DNA of 43,858 nt. Origin: Clostridiales bacterium. Lineage in GTDB: Bacteria; Bacillota; Clostridia; Christensenellales; DTU072. A program made the position numbers and the translations under genes. The stretch covers positions 80,390 through 124,247 of the forward strand of contig JAAZLE010000084.1 in NCBI GenBank assembly GCA_012799455.1, written 5' to 3'. Under the pieces are notes generated by a model, which was given only the letters and a program-made list of their open reading frames with translations, was not told the origin of the DNA and made no database searches. Within the stretch, counting starts at the first letter, position 1. Each line of letters begins with the position of its first letter. This document shows, piece by piece, positions 19,696 through 38,471 of the stretch.

Positions 19696-20082
19696 ATGAA
19701 CAAAAAGGCACTACGTTTATTGCAGTATATTATTAACAATTCAGTAGAAGGGGAGTTTGTGGTATTAAGCAAGCTGGAGGTTAAATCTGCCTTAAACGAC
19801 CAGATTGAAAGTTTAGAAGAACTGGATGGGCTAATAAGGTATTTGGAATTAAAAAAATATATAGATATAAAGTTAAATGACAACAATAGTGTAGTTGTTA
19901 AACCTTCACTAAGCGGATTAGTTGTCGCTGGAAGTGAGAAGTCCGATAACGTGAGTGGAGTTATAAGCTTGAAAGAAAGTAATTTTAGGCATTTTATTTC
20001 AGGTTTAGTTGGCGGTATTTTAGGGGGAATAATAGTTGCCACAGTGGTTGCGATAATAATAATTTTTAGAGGAAGGGTGTGA
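19696..20082 (+). CDS. Small protein with winged-helix-like N-terminus and C-terminal membrane anchor
   Basis: I do not recognise a named family. The 128-residue product has a helical N-terminal half (residues about 1-70, with LLQYIINNSVEGEFVVLSKLEV and LDGLIRYLELKKYIDIKL) that reads like a small winged-helix domain, a linker, and a Gly/Ile/Val-rich membrane segment at about 103-123 (GLVGGILGGIIVATVVAIIIIF). The end RGRV fits a cytoplasmic tail or stop-transfer. It lacks a good Shine-Dalgarno site. The next gene has the same architecture. The domain call is inference from the pattern only. Confidence 0.65.
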   Translation: MNKKALRLLQYIINNSVEGEFVVLSKLEVKSALNDQIESLEELDGLIRYLELKKYIDIKLNDNNSVVVKPSLSGLVVAGSEKSDNVSGVISLKESNFRHFISGLVGGILGGIIVATVVAIIIIFRGRV

Positions 20083-20108: not shown

Positions 20109-20468
20109 ATGTTATTGGGGAAAAAAGAAAAAATTTTAATGGAAACAATTTTTAAGTTGGCGTCAAAAACGGGTCAATGCATAGTTTCAGCCATTGAAAT
20201 ATTAGAAAAAATCCCCTATAAATATGATTTTCGAAAAGAAGATTTGGATAAAACCTTGGATGCTTTAAGGTTAGAGGGCTATTTTGAATATGATATAGCT
20301 CACAGGAAGGACGAAACCGTTTACGTAATAGCGCTGAAAGATCTTGGTAAAGCATATGAGCGTGATAAAAAAACAGCCCGCAAAAAGTTATATATACGTC
20401 TAGGTATTGCAGTATTAGTGGCTATAGTTGGATATCTCGTAAAAGTAATTATTGACGCTATAATTTGA
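20109..20468 (+). CDS. Second small protein with the same layout: helical N-terminus and C-terminal membrane anchor
   Basis: The 119-residue protein has an N-terminal part that may be winged-helix-like (EKILMETIFKLASKTGQCIVSAIEIL, then DALRLEGYFEYDIAH and ETVYVIALKDLGKAYE), a basic stretch (DKKTARKKLYIR) and a final hydrophobic helix at about 97-117 (LGIAVLVAIVGYLVKVIIDAII). It resembles its upstream neighbour in layout though not closely in sequence, suggesting an old duplication. No clear ribosome site precedes ATG 20109. Function unknown. Confidence 0.65.
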   Translation: MLLGKKEKILMETIFKLASKTGQCIVSAIEILEKIPYKYDFRKEDLDKTLDALRLEGYFEYDIAHRKDETVYVIALKDLGKAYERDKKTARKKLYIRLGIAVLVAIVGYLVKVIIDAII

Positions 20469-26635: not shown

Positions 26636-29600
26636 ATGATGAGAAAAAACAAACCTATATTTTTTATTATCGCGACAATTATTACCTTTTGTCTTTTATT
26701 TGTGGTCGCATGCAAACCTCCTGTAATTGACGACAATATAGATAAAAAAGGAGAAGAGGAAACAGTTATTGATGGGCTCATAGTACCAAATGGAAGATTT
26801 GCTAATGCTGGGACCGCCTCATCTAAGCGCTATGTACAGTCAACTGTTACTGGTTGGACTGCGAAGAATGGTTCGAAATCTGTGGATTCAACTGGTGTTG
26901 AAATGGGAGTTATAAACTTAGACACAGAAAAATTTGAGCAAAACAAAGGTTTCATTAGTGGTTTTAATTCATATCCAGGGATTGCTCCTTCGACGCCAAA
27001 AGAGAATGATGTATTTGCCGATACAAATGCGTTATTAATTGGTATACCCAGTTCACAAGATGCTGGGTCACTACAGTTTAGTAGCGGTGATATAACCATA
27101 CAAAAGAATGAGTATTATTTACTCAGCATTGATGTGTACACGGATCTTCAAAAAGAAGAGGGGTCTATGGAATCAGGGGCCGCTATCTGTATAACAGACG
27201 GTGCGTTTGTAGAATTTTTATCCATTGATACCAATAAAACATGGGATACTTATGAGATTTATATCAAGGGAAACAATTATGAAGATCTGAAGTTTAAAAT
27301 TCAGCTTTGGTTAGGACATGGTCCTTCTAAAATTGGTTCCAATGATAACCCATATTTAACTAACGGTATTGTGTTGTACGATAACGTAGTGCTTGAAAAA
27401 ATCGGGCAAGTAGATTACGAGGGAATAATTGCTACTGTTCCTAATCAACAGAAAATAAAGGATGAAGAAGGTAATGTAAAGACGAGTTTAGATCTTGCGT
27501 TTCCAGATCCAGCTATGACTCAATATACCCCATATGATGCGACAAGCACATATGCAGGATACACAAGCCATTATTACTCTGCAAAAAAAGGAGCATCGCC
27601 AAATTATAAATTTATTGTAGGGATGAGCGACTTATCAAAAACAGATAAAGAAGATTTTGATAACGAAAAAATAGGTTACGACGAGAGCAGTAATTCTACG
27701 TTCCCATTAGGTGTGTTTGATATGTCGAAGTTCTATACCTTTGAAGAAAATGTTCCTAAAAATGCGTATGCAGAAATATACAAAGATTTCAAGGCGCCCT
27801 TATATGAAGATTTTTACAAAAAAGACACGGATTCTACGTGGGCTTATGCTCTAGAAGGTAACAGTGATAACAATGGTAGATTGGCGGGCAGTGCATTTGA
27901 CACAAGCGCACTACTCGTTTATCACCCTAAAAACAAGATTAGCGGGGCGGGTTTTCAAAGTAAGAAAAAGTTGGCAATTGAGAAGAATACATATTACAAA
28001 CTATCTGTATGGGTTTATGTTTGGATACCAGAAATAGAAGAGCCCGTAGAGTTGAGTGAAGAAGACAAGAACGATCCTACAAAAGTGAGTAAATATGAGG
28101 AAGAACTTGCAGCTTATAACAAGTACATTGAATTTTACAATAAGGATAAAGATGTATCCGCAACGTTTAAACTTACTGGCGCAAGTATATCTAAAAACGT
28201 TAAACTCGAAGCTAAATCGACGGGTTGGGGTAAGTGGCAACAGTTAACACTTAAAGTCAAAGGGAATGAACTTTCAGCTAGACAAGTGAACATAGAGTTT
28301 TGGTATGGTGAAGGCAAGTGGGGAGAAGATACTCTCTACCCGGGAGCTTGCTTGTTTGATAATTTGACAATTGAAAAGTATACAGAAGAAACTGTTGATA
28401 ACGCTGCAGACTTTTACCAGTTATCAGTATTGCAGCAGGGAGACTATAAACATTTTGGTTTGATAGATAATGGCACCGTATCTAGTGAAGGTTTTACTGA
28501 ATTAGACGATTCTAACACGCTATGGAAACATAAAGTTGAAGATACAAGAACTAATGCCACTGACTATTCATCAGGAATTATTGGCGGGCATAGTGAATTT
28601 ATTGACGCTACGGATTCTAGTGATATAACAGGATTGGAAGGGCTGGCTGGCGGACCAAAAACAATTAAAATCATGTATAACGGAAATGAAACTCCATTAG
28701 ATGTTTTTATGATAAATCATATTAGACCAACAGCATCGAGCGCAGAATTCGTTATAACCGACGAAGCAATAACCGCAGAGCCTGAAATAGAAAAATTGTT
28801 AAAAGTGAACCCTAATAGTTTCTATAGGTTTTCTATGTGGGTCAAAACCTATGGGCTTGTAAAAGGAAAGGGAGCAAATGTTGAAATTAAGCCTAGTACA
28901 GGAGCTGCGTTAGCTAGTTTCAAAGATATATATACAGAGGATTGGTCGGAACTGGTTTTATATGTTCAAGGACGCTCCGTTGACGCGGAAAGGCTTAGCA
29001 TTTCAGTATCTCTTGGCAGCGGGGATATTTATAATCCAGATAACCATGTGCAAGGAGCATTTTTCTTAACCGCAATGGTATGGCAAAAGATAGAATACAC
29101 AGAGTATAAAAGTGCTGTGTCATCTAACTCAGATACGTCAACCCCTAGGGTAGAAAAGAGGACAATCAGTGAAAGTTCTACTAATACTGCAACTATAACC
29201 AATGGTTTTTTCCAGCAGATTGATAGTTCTAATTATGATGACAAAACCCTTTTTGACGAAGATGGAAATTTAATTGGAGTCGCCAAACCATCGAGCTGGA
29301 ATAAAAATGAAGCTAAAGCGACGTTGAGTGCTCCCGCACCGAAGTTGTCGGATAATCACGTGACTTTGAGTTGGGATCCTGTAGATAAGGCAACAAAGTA
29401 CTTTGTATTCATGAATGGCTACAAGGCGGATGATGATTCTAAAGCTGAAGATGATGTGCTGGTAGACGTTACCGCGGGGACAAGTTACACAATTACATAC
29501 AACAGCACATATTATGTGAGGGCTGTAGGGGGAGTTGAAGGACAAGAAAGGATGTTTTCCGCAAAATCTGCAACTCAAAAAGCAACAAAGGTAACTACGA

Positions 29601-31336
29601 ACACTTTACCTGTTAAATATAACGGAGAAGATAAGGACTGGTTTGATATAAAATTAGGAGTGGTTAATTATAAGCACTATACGGGCTTTGAGCAGTTAGA
29701 AAAGGATAATATGTATGGAAATCCAGAGTTAGGTGACTATAAAAGTGTAGCAAGCGATAACCTGTTGTATATTAGCAGTGATTTAGACACTTTTGTGGGT
29801 TACACAATGTCGAGCTACCACACCGCGTATAAAGGTAAGTATTACGTAGTAAGTGTTTGGGTTAAAACTATAGGCAATGCAAAGGCTTCTGTAACGTTAA
29901 AAGATCCCTCATCCGCCCTTGCACTTACAAAGTATCCGAACAGTAATTTTGATGTTAATGGAGAGCATGTTGGGTTTGTTAACATCAACACAAATAATAG
30001 ATGGGTGCAATATAGATTCTTAGTCAAGCCAGGGTTTACAGATGGGAAAATAACAATTGAATTATATTTAGGCAATAGATATGCTGAGGAGATTTCTTCA
30101 GGTGAAGGCGAGGGTAATATTAAGTATTCCCAAGGATTATCAAGGGGCACTGTACTTTTTGATGATGTAAATGTTGAAGAAATTGAATCCTTAAGCAAGT
30201 TTAATTTACAAGCTTATGGTTTTGCGGACCTCACTGATGTGGAAAAGGAAGATTATTTAGAAGAGGATAAGAGAGAAGAGCCATATATTTTAAAAGTTAA
30301 TAATGAGTACACAAATTCGTTCTACAACAACGAGTATGTGTTTAAAGTAGTAGAATTAATAACCGACAGTTTTGATAATTACACAGATGCGACTGACGAC
30401 TACAATGGTCACGTACCGGGTGCATATACACATAGAGACGCAACGGATGCAAGTGGCTATAAAGTGCCGACCGAAGATAATATTCCAGATATGCTATACG
30501 GGGTGTATAATTCTAGGAAACTCACAGATAAAGTAATCGAGTATTTAGTCGCAACGGGATTTGAAGAGGCTGAAATTACTCAATTTTTACAAGAAGGTAC
30601 AACAGGTAATGGCGCTAATTTCTTATTGATGGCGAACATGGTTGATAACGGACAACTTTATGAGTTAAAGTCGGGGTTTGATGTTGAAGCCGCAACATAC
30701 TATAAAATTACATTTAGTGCAAAAGCATTGGTTGCTGATGGCAAGGCTCCCGAGTTCCGGTTTATATATGGAAATGATACAACTAAATGGTCAACAATTA
30801 AGATATCCACTAAAACTATTAAAGAGTATGAGTTTTATGTATTTAATGAAGATGAAAAATCGCCTGTTACAAACAATAAAATATCCTTCCATTTAGGAAC
30901 AAATGATGGCATTAAGGAATCTATAGATACCAAAGATTTCTTTAAGGGGATATTAGTAGTTGATGATATTACTATTACCAAGCTGGAAGCTACGGAAGAA
31001 ACTGCTAATCAGTATGCAAGCGTAGACGCATCGCTAAAACATTCCTTTGAGGCTAAAGAGTTAGCCCCAGATGATGGCACCGGCGAAGAGCCGGAGGATT
31101 CCAAAAAGAAAGAAGTTGATCCGCAACTATGGCTGCTTGTATCCTCTGTAGTAATTGGCGCAATACTGCTTATAACTGTTATTGTTCTTCTTGTTCGTAG
31201 AGTTGGTAAGAAAATGTCAAAGAACAAAAAAGTTGTTATACAAAGTAAGCTTCCAGTAGAGGGGCCCGTAAAACAAAAAGCTGAGCCCTCAAAGAGAAGA
31301 CAAGAATCTCAAGAAATTGATAGGTTCGACGACTAA
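26636..31336 (+). CDS. Giant modular surface lipoprotein with repeated carbohydrate-binding-like domains
   Basis: The 1,566-residue protein starts with a signal peptide and lipobox FVVAC (Cys26) and ends with a membrane helix at about 1495-1520 followed by a basic cytoplasmic-type tail. Between them, about five related modules end near residues 253, 581, 823, 1183 and 1451. Each has a strand like 'YYKLSVWVK', then 'W..Y..YVKG', an 'LWLG'-type strand and a final 'G.VLFDDV.IEKI', a pattern of CBM4/9-like jelly rolls. An FN3-like domain lies at about 898-985 (LSWDPVDKATKYFVF). No catalytic domain is apparent. It probably binds glycans or the cell wall at the surface; the substrate is unknown. 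ATG 26639 is an equally possible start. Confidence 0.85.
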   Translation: MMRKNKPIFFIIATIITFCLLFVVACKPPVIDDNIDKKGEEETVIDGLIVPNGRFANAGTASSKRYVQSTVTGWTAKNGSKSVDSTGVEMGVINLDTEKFEQNKGFISGFNSYPGIAPSTPKENDVFADTNALLIGIPSSQDAGSLQFSSGDITIQKNEYYLLSIDVYTDLQKEEGSMESGAAICITDGAFVEFLSIDTNKTWDTYEIYIKGNNYEDLKFKIQLWLGHGPSKIGSNDNPYLTNGIVLYDNVVLEKIGQVDYEGIIATVPNQQKIKDEEGNVKTSLDLAFPDPAMTQYTPYDATSTYAGYTSHYYSAKKGASPNYKFIVGMSDLSKTDKEDFDNEKIGYDESSNSTFPLGVFDMSKFYTFEENVPKNAYAEIYKDFKAPLYEDFYKKDTDSTWAYALEGNSDNNGRLAGSAFDTSALLVYHPKNKISGAGFQSKKKLAIEKNTYYKLSVWVYVWIPEIEEPVELSEEDKNDPTKVSKYEEELAAYNKYIEFYNKDKDVSATFKLTGASISKNVKLEAKSTGWGKWQQLTLKVKGNELSARQVNIEFWYGEGKWGEDTLYPGACLFDNLTIEKYTEETVDNAADFYQLSVLQQGDYKHFGLIDNGTVSSEGFTELDDSNTLWKHKVEDTRTNATDYSSGIIGGHSEFIDATDSSDITGLEGLAGGPKTIKIMYNGNETPLDVFMINHIRPTASSAEFVITDEAITAEPEIEKLLKVNPNSFYRFSMWVKTYGLVKGKGANVEIKPSTGAALASFKDIYTEDWSELVLYVQGRSVDAERLSISVSLGSGDIYNPDNHVQGAFFLTAMVWQKIEYTEYKSAVSSNSDTSTPRVEKRTISESSTNTATITNGFFQQIDSSNYDDKTLFDEDGNLIGVAKPSSWNKNEAKATLSAPAPKLSDNHVTLSWDPVDKATKYFVFMNGYKADDDSKAEDDVLVDVTAGTSYTITYNSTYYVRAVGGVEGQERMFSAKSATQKATKVTTNTLPVKYNGEDKDWFDIKLGVVNYKHYTGFEQLEKDNMYGNPELGDYKSVASDNLLYISSDLDTFVGYTMSSYHTAYKGKYYVVSVWVKTIGNAKASVTLKDPSSALALTKYPNSNFDVNGEHVGFVNINTNNRWVQYRFLVKPGFTDGKITIELYLGNRYAEEISSGEGEGNIKYSQGLSRGTVLFDDVNVEEIESLSKFNLQAYGFADLTDVEKEDYLEEDKREEPYILKVNNEYTNSFYNNEYVFKVVELITDSFDNYTDATDDYNGHVPGAYTHRDATDASGYKVPTEDNIPDMLYGVYNSRKLTDKVIEYLVATGFEEAEITQFLQEGTTGNGANFLLMANMVDNGQLYELKSGFDVEAATYYKITFSAKALVADGKAPEFRFIYGNDTTKWSTIKISTKTIKEYEFYVFNEDEKSPVTNNKISFHLGTNDGIKESIDTKDFFKGILVVDDITITKLEATEETANQYASVDASLKHSFEAKELAPDDGTGEEPEDSKKKEVDPQLWLLVSSVVIGAILLITVIVLLVRRVGKKMSKNKKVVIQSKLPVEGPVKQKAEPSKRRQESQEIDRFDD

Positions 31337-31388: not shown

Positions 31389-31424
31389 TAGCACTGCTTA
31401 GAAAATAAGTAGTGCTATTTATTA
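31389..31424 (+). terminator. Terminator after the giant lipoprotein gene
   Basis: TAGCACTGCTTA (31389-31400) pairs with TAAGTAGTGCTA (31406-31417), a 12-base stem with one G-U pair and a GAAAA loop, followed by an imperfect T run (TTTATTAT). Confidence 0.75.
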
Positions 31425-31588: not shown

Positions 31589-32887
31589 TTGATACCAACG
31601 TTTAGACATGGTGTTAAAACTAAAGGCCGCAAAGAGTATACGGAAAACATGCCTTTTGAAGAATATCCCGTAGGTGATTTTGTTTACATTCCGTTATTAC
31701 AACATATTGGGAAGCCTGCCACCCCGCTAGTAATCGTGGGTGACAAAGTGAAGTGCGGTACTAAGATAGGGGAAGCGGATGGGTTTATATCTGCTAATGT
31801 CCACAGCTCAGTATCGGGTGAGGTAACGGGCATTGTTGATTTACCATGCGCAACAGGACTGCCAACGACTCACATAGTTATAAAAAATGACTACAAGTAT
31901 GAAGAAGATTTTTTAAGCCCCATACAAAATCCGACAAAAGATGAGGTTTTGGAAAGGTGTAAGGAAGCAGGCATTGTTGGAATGGGGGGTGCAACGTTTC
32001 CTACAATAGTTAAATTAATGCCAAAGACGCCAATAAAAGCATTAATAATCAATGGATGCGAATGCGAGCCTTATATAACAGTTGATTATAGATTAATGCT
32101 AGAAAAAGCTGCAGAAGTTTTGAGCGGTATAGATTTAGTAAAGAGAGCGTTAGGTGTAAACAAAGTATATTTTGGAATCGAGTCTAATAAGCCAGAGGCT
32201 ATAATAAAACTGCGGGATATAAGCACAGATGATGAGATTGAGTTTTGCGAACTTAAAACAAAATATCCACAAGGTGGTGAAAAGCAACTTATAAGCGCAA
32301 TAACAAAAGAAAAAGTTCCAAAGGGAGGTCTTCCATCGGATTTAGGTTATGTTGTTTTTAATGTTTCTACTGTGTATGCATTATACGAAGCAGTTTATCT
32401 TGGACAGCCATTAATATACAGACACATGACAGTATCTGGGAATGGTGTTAAAAGAGCAGCAAACCTTCGTGTTAGGATAGGAGTGCAGCTTTCTGATATA
32501 GTTGAGTATTTAGGGATTGAAGAAAATGTGGTAAAAGTAGTGTTGGGTGGTCCCATGATGGGGGTGTCTTTACACAACTTTAAGTCAACAATAACGAAGG
32601 GAAGCTCATCACTGTTATTACTCGCAGAGAAGGAAATTAGAGAAATAGAACCAACCCCGTGCATTAATTGTGGTAGATGTGCAAAAGCGTGCCCTATGTT
32701 TTTAATGCCAATGGTAACAGATAGAGCAATACTTCATGGAGACATAGAAGGCGCAAATAATTCGTATGCTATGAGTTGCATCGAATGTGGTTGTTGTGCA
32801 TATGTGTGTCCAGCGAGGAGACCCCTTGTTCAGTCACAAAGGCTAGCCAAAAAACTAATAAGGAAAAACAAACTTACACCAGCGTAA
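31589..32887 (+). CDS. rnfC: Rnf electron transport complex subunit RnfC
   Basis: The 432-residue peripheral subunit carries NADH/FMN-binding and iron-sulfur domains: the N-terminal Rnf barrel (PLLQHIGKPATPLVIVGDKVKCGTKIG), the dinucleotide-binding region GIVGMGGATFPTIVK and NGCECEPYITVDYRLM, and two 4Fe-4S motifs near the C-terminus (CINCGRCAKACPM, CIECGCCAYVCPARRP). It transfers electrons to NAD+. The start is TTG, placed by GGAGG at 31578-31582; no ATG fits better. First gene of the rnfCDGEAB operon. Confidence 0.96.
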   Translation: MIPTFRHGVKTKGRKEYTENMPFEEYPVGDFVYIPLLQHIGKPATPLVIVGDKVKCGTKIGEADGFISANVHSSVSGEVTGIVDLPCATGLPTTHIVIKNDYKYEEDFLSPIQNPTKDEVLERCKEAGIVGMGGATFPTIVKLMPKTPIKALIINGCECEPYITVDYRLMLEKAAEVLSGIDLVKRALGVNKVYFGIESNKPEAIIKLRDISTDDEIEFCELKTKYPQGGEKQLISAITKEKVPKGGLPSDLGYVVFNVSTVYALYEAVYLGQPLIYRHMTVSGNGVKRAANLRVRIGVQLSDIVEYLGIEENVVKVVLGGPMMGVSLHNFKSTITKGSSSLLLLAEKEIREIEPTPCINCGRCAKACPMFLMPMVTDRAILHGDIEGANNSYAMSCIECGCCAYVCPARRPLVQSQRLAKKLIRKNKLTPA

Positions 32888-32897
32888 AGGAAGGATT

Positions 32898-33917
32898 ATG
32901 AAAACAAAGTTTTTAGTGTCATCATCACCTCATATAGGAAGCAATCTTACAACTAAAAAGATTATGCTCCATGTTATTATTGCGCTAAGTTTTCCGTTGA
33001 TAGCTGCTACAATAATATTTGGGTTATATAGTTTATTTATCGTTTTGTTAGCGGTAGGAGCTAGTGTTTTAGGAGAGACGTTATATAATTTGATTCGAAA
33101 AAGAGCTAATACCATATCTGACTTGTCTGCAATTGTTACGGGCTTGATATTGGGTATGAATTTACCGCCCACGGTACCGTTTTATGTGCCAATAATTGGT
33201 GGTCTATTTGCTATTATGGTAGTAAAAATGCTTTTTGGTGGTTTGGGTCAAAACTTTGCAAATCCAGCCGCCACAGCGCGTATATTTTTAACATTGTCTT
33301 GGCCAGTTCAAATGTCAAAATACATGAGCCCTTTGGATTACAGTGGTGGTGTAAAAGTTTTTATTTCAGGGTTTACTAAAACATATGTTACATCAGCAAC
33401 TCCACTAGCAACAATAAAGGATTCTATTGACGTTGGTGGTGTTTCGAACTTAAACTTGCTAGATATGTTCCTTGGTAAAATTGGAGGAAGTATAGGGGAG
33501 GTTTGTTCATTAGCGATTATAATTGCTGCGATATATTTGATTATAACTAAGGTGATTGACTGGAAAACACTAGTATCATATGTAATAACTTGTGCTGTTT
33601 TAGCATTAGCATTCTATAAGGATGGATATTTATATGTGTTGCCTACTATTTTAAGTGGCGGAATATTGTTTGCTGGAGTGTTTATGCTTACAGACTATAC
33701 AACGTCTCCAAGAACCGAGCTAGGAAGAGTTATTTTTGCTATATTTGCTGGTTTATTTACAATGATAATAAGGAGATTTGGAGGAATGCCAGAAGGTGCA
33801 TGTTTTTCAATACTATTAGCAAATTTATTTGTGCCATATATTGATAAGATAGTTAAACCAAAACCGTTTGGTTATGTAAAACCGAAAAAAGAGAGGAAAA
33901 AAGAAACCAATGTCTAA
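32898..33917 (+). CDS. rnfD: Rnf complex subunit RnfD
   Basis: A 339-residue membrane protein with about eight to ten helices. It contains the flavinylation motif TSATPLA, whose Thr (about residue 168) would carry covalently bound FMN, and the GGLGQNFANPAATARIFL segment. RnfD is part of the ion-pumping membrane core. It overlaps rnfG by eight bases. The TAAAGGAAGGA stretch supplies the ribosome site. Confidence 0.95.
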   Translation: MKTKFLVSSSPHIGSNLTTKKIMLHVIIALSFPLIAATIIFGLYSLFIVLLAVGASVLGETLYNLIRKRANTISDLSAIVTGLILGMNLPPTVPFYVPIIGGLFAIMVVKMLFGGLGQNFANPAATARIFLTLSWPVQMSKYMSPLDYSGGVKVFISGFTKTYVTSATPLATIKDSIDVGGVSNLNLLDMFLGKIGGSIGEVCSLAIIIAAIYLIITKVIDWKTLVSYVITCAVLALAFYKDGYLYVLPTILSGGILFAGVFMLTDYTTSPRTELGRVIFAIFAGLFTMIIRRFGGMPEGACFSILLANLFVPYIDKIVKPKPFGYVKPKKERKKETNV

Positions 33918-34569
33918 TATGTCAGAAGAAATTAAAAATATGGACATAGAAGATGTTCAGAACGATACTCCAAAAGGTCCTAAAAAAATCAAAAAAGGAC
34001 TTAACGAAAGTGCTAAAATTGTTTTAGCAATATCGATTTTAGCGTTAGTGGCAGCTCTGCTTTTGTCTATCATTAATCACTATACCAAGCAAGATGCGGA
34101 CAAGGCTATGAGGGACGTAATAGCGAAGGTGTATGATTCCCCTGTTGAAAGCTGGGTGAATTTAAGTAACTATAAACCTGTTGAGAAAACTCAGATTGAA
34201 ACGTATGGAAAAGCCGAAGATGGTGCTCATATAGTTATTTCAAAGTCGGAAAAAGGATATAATGCTGCAGGTGTTTCACTTGTTGTGGTAATTAAAGACG
34301 GTAAGATATCAAAGGTTGCAGTATTTTCCCATTCGGAAACACCTGGGCTCGGAGATAAAGCACTAAAAGAAACGTACTTTGAACAATATATTGGCATTTC
34401 TATTGATAGGTTTGTTACGGATGATGATTATATTATTACTTCACCTAGTTCTAATGATGGAATTTTTAAGCCGCAGTTTGTAAGTGGAGCAACTAGGACC
34501 TCAACTGCGGTGCAAGAAGCAATACTGGCAGCAGTGAGGGTGGTGAAGTATTATGGAGATGGAGCATAG
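33910..34569 (+). CDS. rnfG: Rnf complex subunit RnfG
   Basis: The 219-residue protein has one membrane helix at about residues 35-55 (AKIVLAISILALVAALLLSII) and an outward-facing FMN-binding domain ending in SGATRTS, where Thr195 is the expected covalent FMN site. GHSETPGLGDK-type sequence (SHSETPGLGDKAL) is also conserved in the family. Attachment of FMN needs an ApbE flavin transferase, and no apbE gene is in this window. An alternative ATG lies at 33919. Confidence 0.95.
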   Translation: MSNMSEEIKNMDIEDVQNDTPKGPKKIKKGLNESAKIVLAISILALVAALLLSIINHYTKQDADKAMRDVIAKVYDSPVESWVNLSNYKPVEKTQIETYGKAEDGAHIVISKSEKGYNAAGVSLVVVIKDGKISKVAVFSHSETPGLGDKALKETYFEQYIGISIDRFVTDDDYIITSPSSNDGIFKPQFVSGATRTSTAVQEAILAAVRVVKYYGDGA

Positions 34570-34573
34570 TACA

Positions 34574-35221
34574 ATGATGAAAAATAAAAAGCTAAAATTA
34601 AATGATTTAGTAACTCCATTTACTAACGGGATTATAAAAAATAATGCTACATTTAGACTAGTGCTTGGAACTTGTCCTACGCTTGCGGTTACAACTTTAG
34701 CGATGAATGGTATTGGGATGGGGCTTGCAGTGACTTTTGTTTTAGTGTTTTCAAATGCTATTGTATCTGCACTAAGAAACTTTATCCCGAGAAAGGTGAG
34801 AATACCTGCATATATCCTAATAATAGCTACGTTTTCGACTATAGTAGAAATGGTAACAAGGGCATTTTTGCCAGATTTATACTCTAAGTTAGGACTGTTT
34901 ATTCCTTTAATAGTTGTTAATTGTATACTTTTGGCGAGGGTAGAAAGTTTTGCATCATTGAATAGAGTTTTACCTTCTGTTATGGATGGTTTGGGAATTG
35001 GGCTAGGATTTACAATGAGCATAACACTTATGGGAATTATTAGAGAATTTATAGGAGCAGGTACTTTCTTTGGGATGCCAATAAATGCGTTAATTAATGC
35101 CGACTTACCTATGGTGATATTTATTTTGCCAGCAGGGGGATTTATGGTGTTTGGTTTTATGTTGGTGATATTTAATACCATAGTGGAAAAGATTGAGAAT
35201 TTAAGAGGCAAATCAAAATAG
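34574..35221 (+). CDS. rnfE: Rnf complex subunit RnfE
   Basis: A membrane protein of about 215 residues with six helices, homologous to RnfA; the family marks are FTNGIIKNNATFRLVLGTCPTLAVTT and the Cys in LGTCP. RnfA and RnfE form an inverted pair that holds an iron-sulfur centre in the membrane. The track starts at 34553 inside rnfG, but GGAG at 34561-34564 is better placed for ATG 34574 (MMKNKKLKLND). Confidence 0.94.
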   Translation: MMKNKKLKLNDLVTPFTNGIIKNNATFRLVLGTCPTLAVTTLAMNGIGMGLAVTFVLVFSNAIVSALRNFIPRKVRIPAYILIIATFSTIVEMVTRAFLPDLYSKLGLFIPLIVVNCILLARVESFASLNRVLPSVMDGLGIGLGFTMSITLMGIIREFIGAGTFFGMPINALINADLPMVIFILPAGGFMVFGFMLVIFNTIVEKIENLRGKSK

Positions 35222-35247
35222 TAAGAAAATATGGGAGATAGTATATA

Positions 35248-35829
35248 ATGCCATACTGGATTTATTTGGTGATAAGTGGAATTTTCGTTAATAATTTTGT
35301 GTTATCAAGATTTTTAGGTATATGTCCATTTCTGGGTGTTAGTAAAAAAACCGATACCGCGTTAGGTATGGGGCTCGCAGTTATTTTTGTTATGGGAGTG
35401 GCTAGCGTAATCACTTATGGTTTAAATCTTTTGCTTGTGATAGCTGATATAGAGTATTTGCAAACTATTGTTTTTATTCTTGTTATTGCAGCGCTAATTC
35501 AGTTAATAGAGATCGTAATTAAGAGGTTTGCCCCTGGATTATATACAGCATTAGGTGTTTATCTGCCTTTAATAACAACGAATTGTGCAGTTTTGGGCGT
35601 AGCAATTATGAATGTAACGGAGCTTGCTAAACAAACAGTGTTTTTAGCTTTTGTTAATGGAGTAGCCTCTGGTATGGGCTTTACTCTTGCAATGTTAATA
35701 ATGGCGGGAATTAGGGAGAGAATGGAGCTTTCAGATATACCTGAAAGGTTTAAAGGCTTTCCGATAACTCTTATTACTGCATCAATTATGGCAATGGCCT
35801 TCACTGCATTTGCAGGTTTAAGTTTATAG
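35248..35829 (+). CDS. rnfA: Rnf complex subunit RnfA
   Basis: The 193-residue membrane protein has six hydrophobic helices and the signatures NNFVLSRFLGICPFLGVSKK and PLITTNCAVLGVA, including the paired Cys (GICP and TNC) that bind the membrane iron-sulfur centre with RnfE. Standard length. It follows rnfE by 26 bases with a GGGAGA site. Confidence 0.96.
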   Translation: MPYWIYLVISGIFVNNFVLSRFLGICPFLGVSKKTDTALGMGLAVIFVMGVASVITYGLNLLLVIADIEYLQTIVFILVIAALIQLIEIVIKRFAPGLYTALGVYLPLITTNCAVLGVAIMNVTELAKQTVFLAFVNGVASGMGFTLAMLIMAGIRERMELSDIPERFKGFPITLITASIMAMAFTAFAGLSL

Positions 35830-35848
35830 AAATGGGAGGCGAGTATAA

Positions 35849-36637
35849 ATGTTTATAATCATTCCAGTATCAATACTAACTGTACTAGCGATACTTTTTG
35901 GTATTCTCATAGCTATATTTAGTAAAAAATTTGAAGTTCCAACAGATCAAATGGTAGAGGATGTTCTCAGTAATTTGTCTGGTGCAAATTGTGGTGCGTG
36001 TGGGTATGCTGGATGTGAAGATTTTGCAAATGCATTAGTGACAGGGGAGGCATCTTTAGCCCTTTGTAATGCAACTTCCAAGGAAGGAAAGCTAAAAATA
36101 GGAGAACTTTTAGGAACAGACGCATCTATTTTAGATACAGTGGTTGTTTGTGCCTGTAATGGCGGGAATTTATGTGAAGATAAGTATTCTTATCAAGGCT
36201 ATGGGGACTGCAAAAGTGTAGAGCTATTAGCAGGTGGAAGAAAAACATGTCCTTCGGGCTGCATAGGAATGAGTACTTGTGTTGCCAGTTGTCCCTCACA
36301 TGCAATTGAAATAATTCAAGGAGTTGCTGTCGTGGATAATAATAAATGCACAAACTGCGGTGTTTGCATTTTGCAATGTCCTAAGAATATAATAAAAAGA
36401 ATCCCTGCGGATAAATATTATTACGTGGCATGCTCAACTCCACTTACAGGCAAAAATGTTAGAGTGAACTGTAAGGCTGGATGTATAGGATGTTCGATTT
36501 GCAGTAAAGTGTGTCCCGAAGGTGCAATTACAATGATTAATAACTTACCGGTTATTGATTATACTAAATGCACTAATTGTGGCATTTGTGCTAGCAAGTG
36601 TCCCGCTAAGTGCATATTAAAACGTAGCGGAAAATAA
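35849..36637 (+). CDS. rnfB: Rnf complex ferredoxin-type subunit RnfB
   Basis: The 262-residue protein has an N-terminal membrane helix (residues 1-24), a 4Fe-4S domain GANCGACGYAGCEDFANAL, and several C-terminal ferredoxin-type clusters (CIGMSTCVASCP, CTNCGVCILQCP, CIGCSICSKVCP, CTNCGICASKCP). RnfB accepts electrons from reduced ferredoxin and passes them to the membrane core. The ribosome site is GGGAGGCGAG. It ends one base before the next gene, showing tight operon packing. Confidence 0.96.
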   Translation: MFIIIPVSILTVLAILFGILIAIFSKKFEVPTDQMVEDVLSNLSGANCGACGYAGCEDFANALVTGEASLALCNATSKEGKLKIGELLGTDASILDTVVVCACNGGNLCEDKYSYQGYGDCKSVELLAGGRKTCPSGCIGMSTCVASCPSHAIEIIQGVAVVDNNKCTNCGVCILQCPKNIIKRIPADKYYYVACSTPLTGKNVRVNCKAGCIGCSICSKVCPEGAITMINNLPVIDYTKCTNCGICASKCPAKCILKRSGK

Positions 36638-36638
36638 C

Positions 36639-38471
36639 ATGAAAATAACGATCATAACGAAGATACGATTAAGTGTTGTAATATTGTTTGTAATTTTAGT
36701 TGTTGCATTTTTTATTTTAACATCGTGCAAGCCTAATGATGTTGTTACGTCAACGCAGTATTTTAAAAACTTTCAATCTACACCACCATACTCTAGAGTT
36801 ACGGAGATGCTTCGCTTAGGCGAAGGCGTTTCAATTAATAGTTTTGATAATCGTACAGGTATCTACATAACTCAAAAATTATTTTATGGAGACGAGGAAA
36901 GGTTTGGCTTTTGCGATGAAAATAGAGAATTAGTTGAGCCCAAATTCACTAATGTTTTAGATATAAAAGGGAATTATGCAACAGTAACAATGCCTTTTAC
37001 AAAGTCGGATAGCAGTATTGAACATAGGATAGGAATAGTAAAAATACGGGGAGAGGGAAGCGGGCAAATAAATCCTGGTGATTATGGATTTACACAAGCA
37101 TATAATCCTGCTATACAACAGTACACATTTTTAGACGAAAAACATGTTGCTATTCTTGGTGGAAAAGATGTTGTGAATCTTGTCGAAAATGAAGAAGCTA
37201 TTATTTACGATTATTCTAGCGCAAATGGTTTGTTAGAGATTGCTAAAATTGAAGATATTAATAATACTGCTAAATTTACATTGAATGAAGGTCATCTAAT
37301 TGTAACTATGCCCGGTAGGGCCAATATATATTCTATAAACTCAATAGATGATAGGGGATACTTAAATAAAAAAAGTTATTATATGCCATATTCGGAGTCG
37401 GAGTTTGACTTAAGACAAGTTGATGTTGAAGTGTATTATTTAGGCAACAACTGGTTTGTTTTTTCAGGGATTTACTCTACCCAAGTGGAGTATGATGGGT
37501 ATGAGATTAAGAAAACAGTCTATAATCAGGAAAATCCGTATTATTTAACAATTAGAAGTAAACGATATAATGCTGTGTCCGGACAATATTATGATACGGA
37601 AAGAGTTTCGTTAGTAGCAAATAAATATACTAGTAATTATGTGAAAGATTTGGTATCGCTCATGAATGTTTATTCAGGTGCTGAGTGCTTAAATGTGGAT
37701 ACCCCTGATATTATGCAGCGAGTTTATTCTACGTTAGTTTTGCCAACAAGCGAGATAGTAAAGGATGGGTATTCAATTGTATACACATATTTTCCTATAT
37801 ATGATGAAGAAGGGAATGTTGCTTTTCATGATACTTTTCAGATTTATGATAAAGAAGCTTCTAGAATAATTGTTAAGGAAGCCGCGCTCCCAATCATATA
37901 TATTGATAGTTATGGGTTGCAGAGTTTAGATCCAAATTTCGCATTACCGGTAAGAGATGTTGAGTATTATAAATATGAAGATGGGCAAAAAGTGAGTCTT
38001 AAAAAACTTGATAAAAACGCTGGGTATGACCCATATTTGCTACATTCGGGAATGATATTTGCTCTAAAAATAGATGCAAACCTTGATAATACATCCGCTA
38101 TATTTAACTTAAAAGGTGACCAAATAAGACCATTTGAATACGATGTAATAGCACCGTATTTTGGGGAGTATGCAATAGGTGGAAAAATTGAAAAACATCC
38201 AACTAAGCATCTTGATTATTACAAGTATTATAGGATAGATAAGTCGGGCAATGAACAGGCAATTAATGAGTTCGTTTATTCTGTTCACTATGGTGTTTAT
38301 GTTGTAAAGGAAGGAAATAAATATAGATTATGTAACAACAAAGGAGATATCTTGCTCGAGCATTGTGATTATATTTTCGTGGCCAATGACTTTTTTGTAG
38401 ATGGAAAGTTTATTAAATCGACAATAATTACTAACGAGAATGGTAGAAGTGTTATTTATAAACTATCGTAG
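36639..38471 (+). CDS. Unrecognised lipoprotein with WG-repeat-like segments, in the rnf operon
   Basis: A 610-residue protein with a long hydrophobic signal and lipobox LTSC (Cys30), so it is likely anchored outside the membrane. Near residues 85-105 (RFGFCDENRELVEPKFTNV) and towards the C-terminus (FNLKGDQIRPFEYDVIAPYF, KYRLCNNKGDILLEHCDYIF) it has WG-repeat-like motifs, a beta-rich fold. The middle part shows nothing I can assign. It starts one base after the rnfB stop, so it is co-transcribed and likely coupled with Rnf, though no such subunit is known to me. Function unknown. Confidence 0.75.
   Translation: MKITIITKIRLSVVILFVILVVAFFILTSCKPNDVVTSTQYFKNFQSTPPYSRVTEMLRLGEGVSINSFDNRTGIYITQKLFYGDEERFGFCDENRELVEPKFTNVLDIKGNYATVTMPFTKSDSSIEHRIGIVKIRGEGSGQINPGDYGFTQAYNPAIQQYTFLDEKHVAILGGKDVVNLVENEEAIIYDYSSANGLLEIAKIEDINNTAKFTLNEGHLIVTMPGRANIYSINSIDDRGYLNKKSYYMPYSESEFDLRQVDVEVYYLGNNWFVFSGIYSTQVEYDGYEIKKTVYNQENPYYLTIRSKRYNAVSGQYYDTERVSLVANKYTSNYVKDLVSLMNVYSGAECLNVDTPDIMQRVYSTLVLPTSEIVKDGYSIVYTYFPIYDEEGNVAFHDTFQIYDKEASRIIVKEAALPIIYIDSYGLQSLDPNFALPVRDVEYYKYEDGQKVSLKKLDKNAGYDPYLLHSGMIFALKIDANLDNTSAIFNLKGDQIRPFEYDVIAPYFGEYAIGGKIEKHPTKHLDYYKYYRIDKSGNEQAINEFVYSVHYGVYVVKEGNKYRLCNNKGDILLEHCDYIFVANDFFVDGKFIKSTIITNENGRSVIYKLS

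Follow-up and report, generated by a model that had tools for sequence, protein, structure and literature searches.

What does a clostridial cell gain from a protein of 1,566 residues that is predicted to be fastened to the membrane at both ends and that carries repeated β modules without an enzyme? The question is raised by a gene lying within the 43,858-nucleotide stretch of DNA analysed here (the window), whose features, all on the forward strand, were read as follows, with the basis of each in brackets.

26636–31336, +: whole gene, 1,566 aa (open reading frame and homologues).
26636–26713, +: signal peptide and lipobox with predicted lipidated Cys26 (sequence; Cys kept in aligned homologues; lgt and lspA in the genome).
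26762–27409, +: module 1, jelly roll, aa 43–258 (model, profile comparison, homologues).
27488–28387, +: module 2, jelly roll, aa 285–584 (model, profile comparison, homologues).
28421–29101, +: module 3, jelly roll without the terminal FDD/FDN motif, aa 596–822 (sequence, model, profile comparison).
29189–29314, +: module 4, first part, aa 852–893 (model, profile comparison).
29312–29590, +: FN3-like domain lying within module 4, about aa 893–985 (PDB matches, model, homologues).
29636–30187, +: module 4, second part, aa 1001–1184 (model, profile comparison, homologues).
30299–30991, +: module 5, jelly roll, aa 1222–1452 (model, profile comparison, homologues).
31130–31198, +: C-terminal transmembrane helix, about aa 1499–1521 (sequence, homologues, model; dN = 0 between loci L071 and L072).
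31199–31333, +: cytoplasmic tail, with a basic juxtamembrane part and then an acidic end, IDRFDD (sequence, homologues).
31389–31417, +: hairpin resembling an intrinsic terminator, 12 pairs followed by a T-rich run (7 such sites in the region against 3.5 expected).

The open reading frame runs through 1,566 codons without an internal stop, and its reading agreed with the original prediction of an N-terminal lipobox and of a C-terminal helix with a basic tail. The protein begins with MMRKNKPIFFIIATIITFCLLFVVAC, in which a hydrophobic stretch leads to the lipobox LFVVAC and Cys26, as read from the sequence; Ala25 and Cys26 are invariant in a 19-sequence alignment (A1), and the window's genome encodes both lgt and lspA. 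At the other end, the strongly hydrophobic helix WLLVSSVVIGAILLITVIVLLV is followed by RRVGKKMSKNKK, and the last residues of the tail, which is about 45 residues long, are IDRFDD. The basic start and acidic end of the tail were seen in most homologues, mean identity being low in the tail (0.24) and 0.51 in the C-terminal helix. No LPXTG-type motif precedes this helix in the window protein sequence, where the 45-residue tail is found instead. Homologues sharing the double anchor, proposed earlier as a check, were sought, and the full-length homologues examined proved to carry both anchors: lipobox, C-terminal helix (mean hydropathy about 3) and basic tail were present in nearly all full-length homologues from the named genomes, while those without one anchor came from contigs cut at one end or from the selection of a larger neighbouring ORF. 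With a lipid anchor signal at the N-terminus and a transmembrane anchor at the C-terminus, the ectodomain should lie on the membrane's outer face as a closed loop. A literature search for doubly anchored lipoproteins gave no description of this architecture.

The gene belongs to an unnamed orthologous family and is conserved, in single copy, in one branch of the Christensenellales. One copy is present in the window's genome, which measures 1.62 Mb and is 94% complete; all other matches there are signal peptides only. Within the window's GTDB family, of the DTU072 type, 39 of 40 genomes carry the gene; this family takes in Clostridiales bacterium DTU072 and Candidatus Stercoripulliclostridium species, and a DTU072 MAG has been placed under Christensenellales (PMC11536998). 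Of 67 genomes sampled from one side of the tree of the order, 65 have the gene, and profile matches occurred in 151 of 248 genomes drawn from the order. Order members beyond the window's family encode proteins of 1,225–1,560 aa in which the five modules are colinear, the C-terminal helix is kept and FN3 is absent. The full architecture was confined to the order Christensenellales among 391 genomes drawn from the class, and outside the order the profile matched single modules, signal peptides or the region of the tail in that draw. Drafts and metagenome assemblies make up nearly all of these genomes, and absence from a single one is weak evidence. For one close pair of loci (L071/L072), dN/dS was 0.045 overall and dN was zero in the membrane helix, a pattern of strong purifying selection in this pair, unlike that of a variable surface antigen.

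Direct family searches returned little. With the full window protein as a single sequence, no family was matched in Pfam at E ≤ 0.1 or in NCBIfam at E ≤ 1, in keeping with the earlier statement that no enzyme domain is present; against the PDB, the single-sequence search gave one weak match only, to a carbohydrate-binding module (CBM), at E 1.3. Residues 27–848 searched alone reached 18.5 bits for PF02018, below the cut-off of 25.9, and none of the window protein's modules passed a CBM family cut-off in Pfam. Some homologues gave weak matches to CBM_4_9 or CBM_4_9_1, and the sub-threshold Pfam CBM matches fall at the expected module positions. In the named genomes, homologues were likewise retrieved when an alignment was used as query and not with the single sequence.

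Module profiles were compared with one another, using residues 43–258, 285–584, 596–822, 852–893 plus 986–1184, and 1222–1452. All ten pairs were homologous at 97.8–99.7% probability, far above the controls (at most 0.4% for twenty column-shuffled profiles and at most 1.2% for FN3 against the modules), so that the expected number of about five related modules can be given as five. The proposed closing pattern G.VLFDDV, with either DN or DD, holds for modules 1, 2, 4 and 5 and is missing from module 3 (GAFFLTAMVWQKIEY). Module 2 has a predicted helical insert of variable length (helix aa 481–501) between two strands. AlphaFold2 models built with homologue alignments had a mean pLDDT of 82.4 and a pTM of 0.78 for residues 27–848, and of 78.1 and 0.72 for residues 849–1566. 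A jelly-roll fold, on which the original prediction had been made to depend beforehand, was recovered: the models match CBM4/16/22-like jelly rolls, Foldseek against the PDB giving CBM4-2 (1k42, TM 0.68 by target length), CBM16 (2zey, 0.63) and 4xuo (0.56), together with a CBM22 tandem (4xup), CBM70 (4d0q) and reelin and MAM domains. For the C-terminal half, the top-ranking fold match was 7kwb, surface glycan-binding protein B of B. thetaiotaomicron. The single FN3-like domain anticipated from the sequence was also confirmed, by PDB FN3 matches (E 0.011 and 0.1) and a continuous β domain with pLDDT of about 90–95; its nesting between the first strands and the remainder of module 4 is an addition to that reading. 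Within the window's family almost every member has FN3; all 14 members examined from other families lack it.

In the strand YY.LSVWVKT and the closing strand G..FDDV, as in the jelly-roll fold itself, the modules resemble CBM4/CBM9-type domains (PF02018; also PF22637, CBM16, CBM22). Unlike these, the window protein has no above-cut-off match and no attached enzyme, and strings five modules between two anchors.

The nearest relatives of the modules outside the order were examined in the 16 loci holding the best module matches. Twelve of them encode polytopic proteins that open with a hydrophobic segment and a single module, followed in almost every case by a second helix; those scanned were mostly of PMT, GT87 or ALG6/8 type, that is, GT-C glycosyltransferases. 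Five non-order loci also encode small proteins made up of the hydrophobic segment, module and helix only. Order families lacking the window protein have PMT_4TMC enzymes, mostly ORFs of about 1,080–1,610 aa, and most of these start with the same unit of hydrophobic segment, jelly roll and helix. In profile comparison the GT-C units matched the five modules at 94.5–98.7%, against at most 0.4% for FN3, and about 9 of 33 GT-C-type units have a lipobox as judged by eye. Two of the 16 loci (L133 and L142) are not GT-C, and in L133 an ordinary CBM_4_9 domain scores as well (35 bits); the link to GT-C enzymes is hence a preference and not exclusive. The homologous module, preceded by a hydrophobic segment (in some with a lipobox) and followed by a helix, is thus shared with the window protein, which differs in having five modules where the GT-C unit has one, and in lacking the catalytic part to which that unit is usually fused: a single helix follows its modules, the multi-helix GT-C catalytic part is absent and no Pfam PMT or GT family is matched.

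Two further arrangements were observed among these relatives. In other Clostridia (L137, L140, L144, L134, L136), small proteins consisting of hydrophobic segment, jelly roll and membrane helix adjoin GT-C enzymes that start with the same unit, and a non-exhaustive literature search found no description of such clusters as a system. Order members without the window protein (L158–L172, L177) have single ORFs of about 1,250–1,610 aa with 13–21 predicted membrane helices, seemingly comprising two GT-C-like parts behind one jelly-roll unit, with PMT_2 matched twice in some.

The distribution of the gene was then set against that of PMT enzymes in 121 genomes of the order: 62 had the gene only, 49 PMT only, 3 both and 7 neither. 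Weak matches in family f11 (G049, G077) were assumed to represent absence, because the PMT enzymes of f11 themselves carry a matching module. Mutual replacement of the gene and PMT GT-C appears strong by these counts, but a UvrB tree built from 60 genomes shows only two changes in gene presence and five in PMT, and an independent-pairs test had too few pairs. Since the pattern reflects mainly one deep split, the complementarity is not independent evidence for replacement, and this candidate explanation was set aside.

In the window, a folate-type ECF S component on the opposite strand lies on one side of the gene and the rnf operon on the other, with uvrB and uvrA beyond, and no glycan transporter, regulator or glycanase adjoins it; the absence of adjacent polysaccharide utilisation locus (PUL) genes, as first noted, is therefore upheld. 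Given the terminator-like hairpin 3′ of the gene, it probably forms a transcription unit of its own. A flippase of the MOP family, closest to SpoVB although below that model's cut-off, lies in the neighbourhood in 28 of 40 related loci, usually adjoining the gene; these loci span several families and show two arrangements. A PF01943 flippase was not detectable in the window's genome (G000) or in G001 and G014, and PMT_2 or PMT-type GT-C was not found in the window's genome. The gene is thus kept without either, so neither can be an obligate partner; the flippase, considered as such a partner, was rejected. PF01943 was found in 35 of the 38 relatives searched, and the sub-lineage of G000, G001 and G014 may have undergone a change in envelope glycan export.

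Other features of these neighbourhoods are recorded in their own right. The rnf operon (window 31589–36637, +) stands beside the lipoprotein gene in many loci of the order, in two different orientations. Directly after rnfB, the window encodes a putative lipoprotein of 610 aa (36639–38471, +; lipobox ...FILTSC), with only a sub-threshold WG-repeat match and with homologues in the same neighbourhood of 6 related loci. Upstream of uvrB, two adjacent small proteins of 128 and 119 aa (19696–20082 and 20109–20468, +) each combine a soluble N-terminal part with a single membrane helix at the C-terminus and have no convincing family match. In one genus of the family, a giant repeat protein of at least 1,674–2,326 aa, which ends in a membrane helix followed by a basic tail, is encoded near the lipoprotein (L047:13652–19000; L045:3–5027; L093; L100).

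The window protein is, from its sequence, a membrane-held, non-catalytic envelope protein with predicted anchors at both ends, and the readings of its role have to be weighed on this basis. That it is no real gene, or that its modules are coincidental, is refuted by homologues in many genomes, by the dN/dS value and by module homology far above the shuffled controls. In Bacteroides, surface glycan-binding proteins are PUL products with a single anchor. They resemble the window protein in their serial β domains on the cell surface and in the fold match of its C-terminal half to 7kwb, which, with the CBM-like folds and a GH2-like β-galactosidase predicted close by in 7 loci from related genera, would suit capture of dietary or host glycans. 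The window protein, however, has two anchors and no PUL; no transporter, regulator or glycanase adjoins its gene in the window; the gene is single-copy, near-universal in its branch and syntenic with uvrA and rnf, and modules held to the membrane at both ends stay close to it, under the wall. Nutrient capture is made less likely by the lack of a PUL and by this core-gene behaviour, and we consider it unlikely. A transmembrane sensor, in which the ectodomain would sense an envelope ligand and the conserved tail relay it, draws on the basic start and acidic end of the tail in most members, but the tail is short and of low identity, has no known signalling domain, and no regulator adjoins the gene, which makes a sensor very unlikely.

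The main rival is a purely mechanical or structural tether, which would bind peptidoglycan or an envelope protein through protein contacts and set the distance between membrane and wall, with no role in glycan assembly. It accords with the two anchors, with the conserved fixed order of five modules, with the pTM of modules 1–3, which in the model suggests that they are packed, and with the survival of the gene after loss of the flippase and PMT-type GT-C. Against it, the closest relatives of the modules are linked to glycan-building enzymes and we know of no tether with this architecture; we regard it as somewhat unlikely.

We tentatively favour, as possible rather than probable, a protein that is held at the membrane, has no enzyme domain and would bind envelope glycan of the cell itself, serving as a tether or assembly aid. 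The earlier suggestion that the protein holds glycan or wall polymer is made plausible by the CBM-like jelly rolls, but has against it that no module passes a CBM cut-off, and jelly rolls of this kind also serve protein–protein contacts, reelin and MAM being among the fold matches. The occurrence of the nearest non-order relatives mainly on GT-C enzymes points to the cell's own envelope glycan and not to food glycans. Also in favour of this reading are the architecture conserved throughout the order, the near-universal occurrence in the branch, the purifying selection, the lack of an adjoining PUL or glycanase in the window and the SpoVB-like flippase in the neighbourhood of 28 of 40 loci; the lack of a detectable PF01943 flippase and of PMT-type GT-C in the window's genome speaks against it. 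With both ends in the membrane, the modules would reach outward by about half their summed length, an estimated 10–12 nm or so, which would keep them in the zone under or at the wall. Close to the membrane they may bind glycan of the cell's own surface or wall, much as carbohydrate-binding ectodomains of GT-C enzymes would hold an acceptor glycan, and the protein would then tether the membrane to the wall, space the two or assist in assembly, and would not be a receptor for food polysaccharides. The CBM-like domain of the GT-C enzyme EmbC, a mycobacterial arabinosyltransferase, is reported to bind acceptor glycan (PMC3044687); this C-terminal domain offers an analogy, as a carbohydrate-binding β-sandwich on the outer face of the membrane (PMC3044687), but it is part of an enzyme and not doubly anchored. 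The conserved cytoplasmic tail may position the protein or signal. A bolder scenario, which we hold to be decidedly unlikely, is that an ancestral ectodomain unit of a membrane glycosyltransferase was multiplied fivefold and freed from its enzyme, to become a clade-defining organiser of envelope glycan in one branch of the Christensenellales; PMT-type enzymes with one such unit would have persisted in the other branch.

A giant protein without a family name is thus near-universal in a large, mostly uncultured branch of the Clostridia comprising the DTU072 type and related families. Its anchoring in the membrane at both ends is unusual, and the tie between its CBM-like modules and the outer-face domain of clostridial GT-C enzymes suggests where the envelope glycan of these bacteria might be sought.
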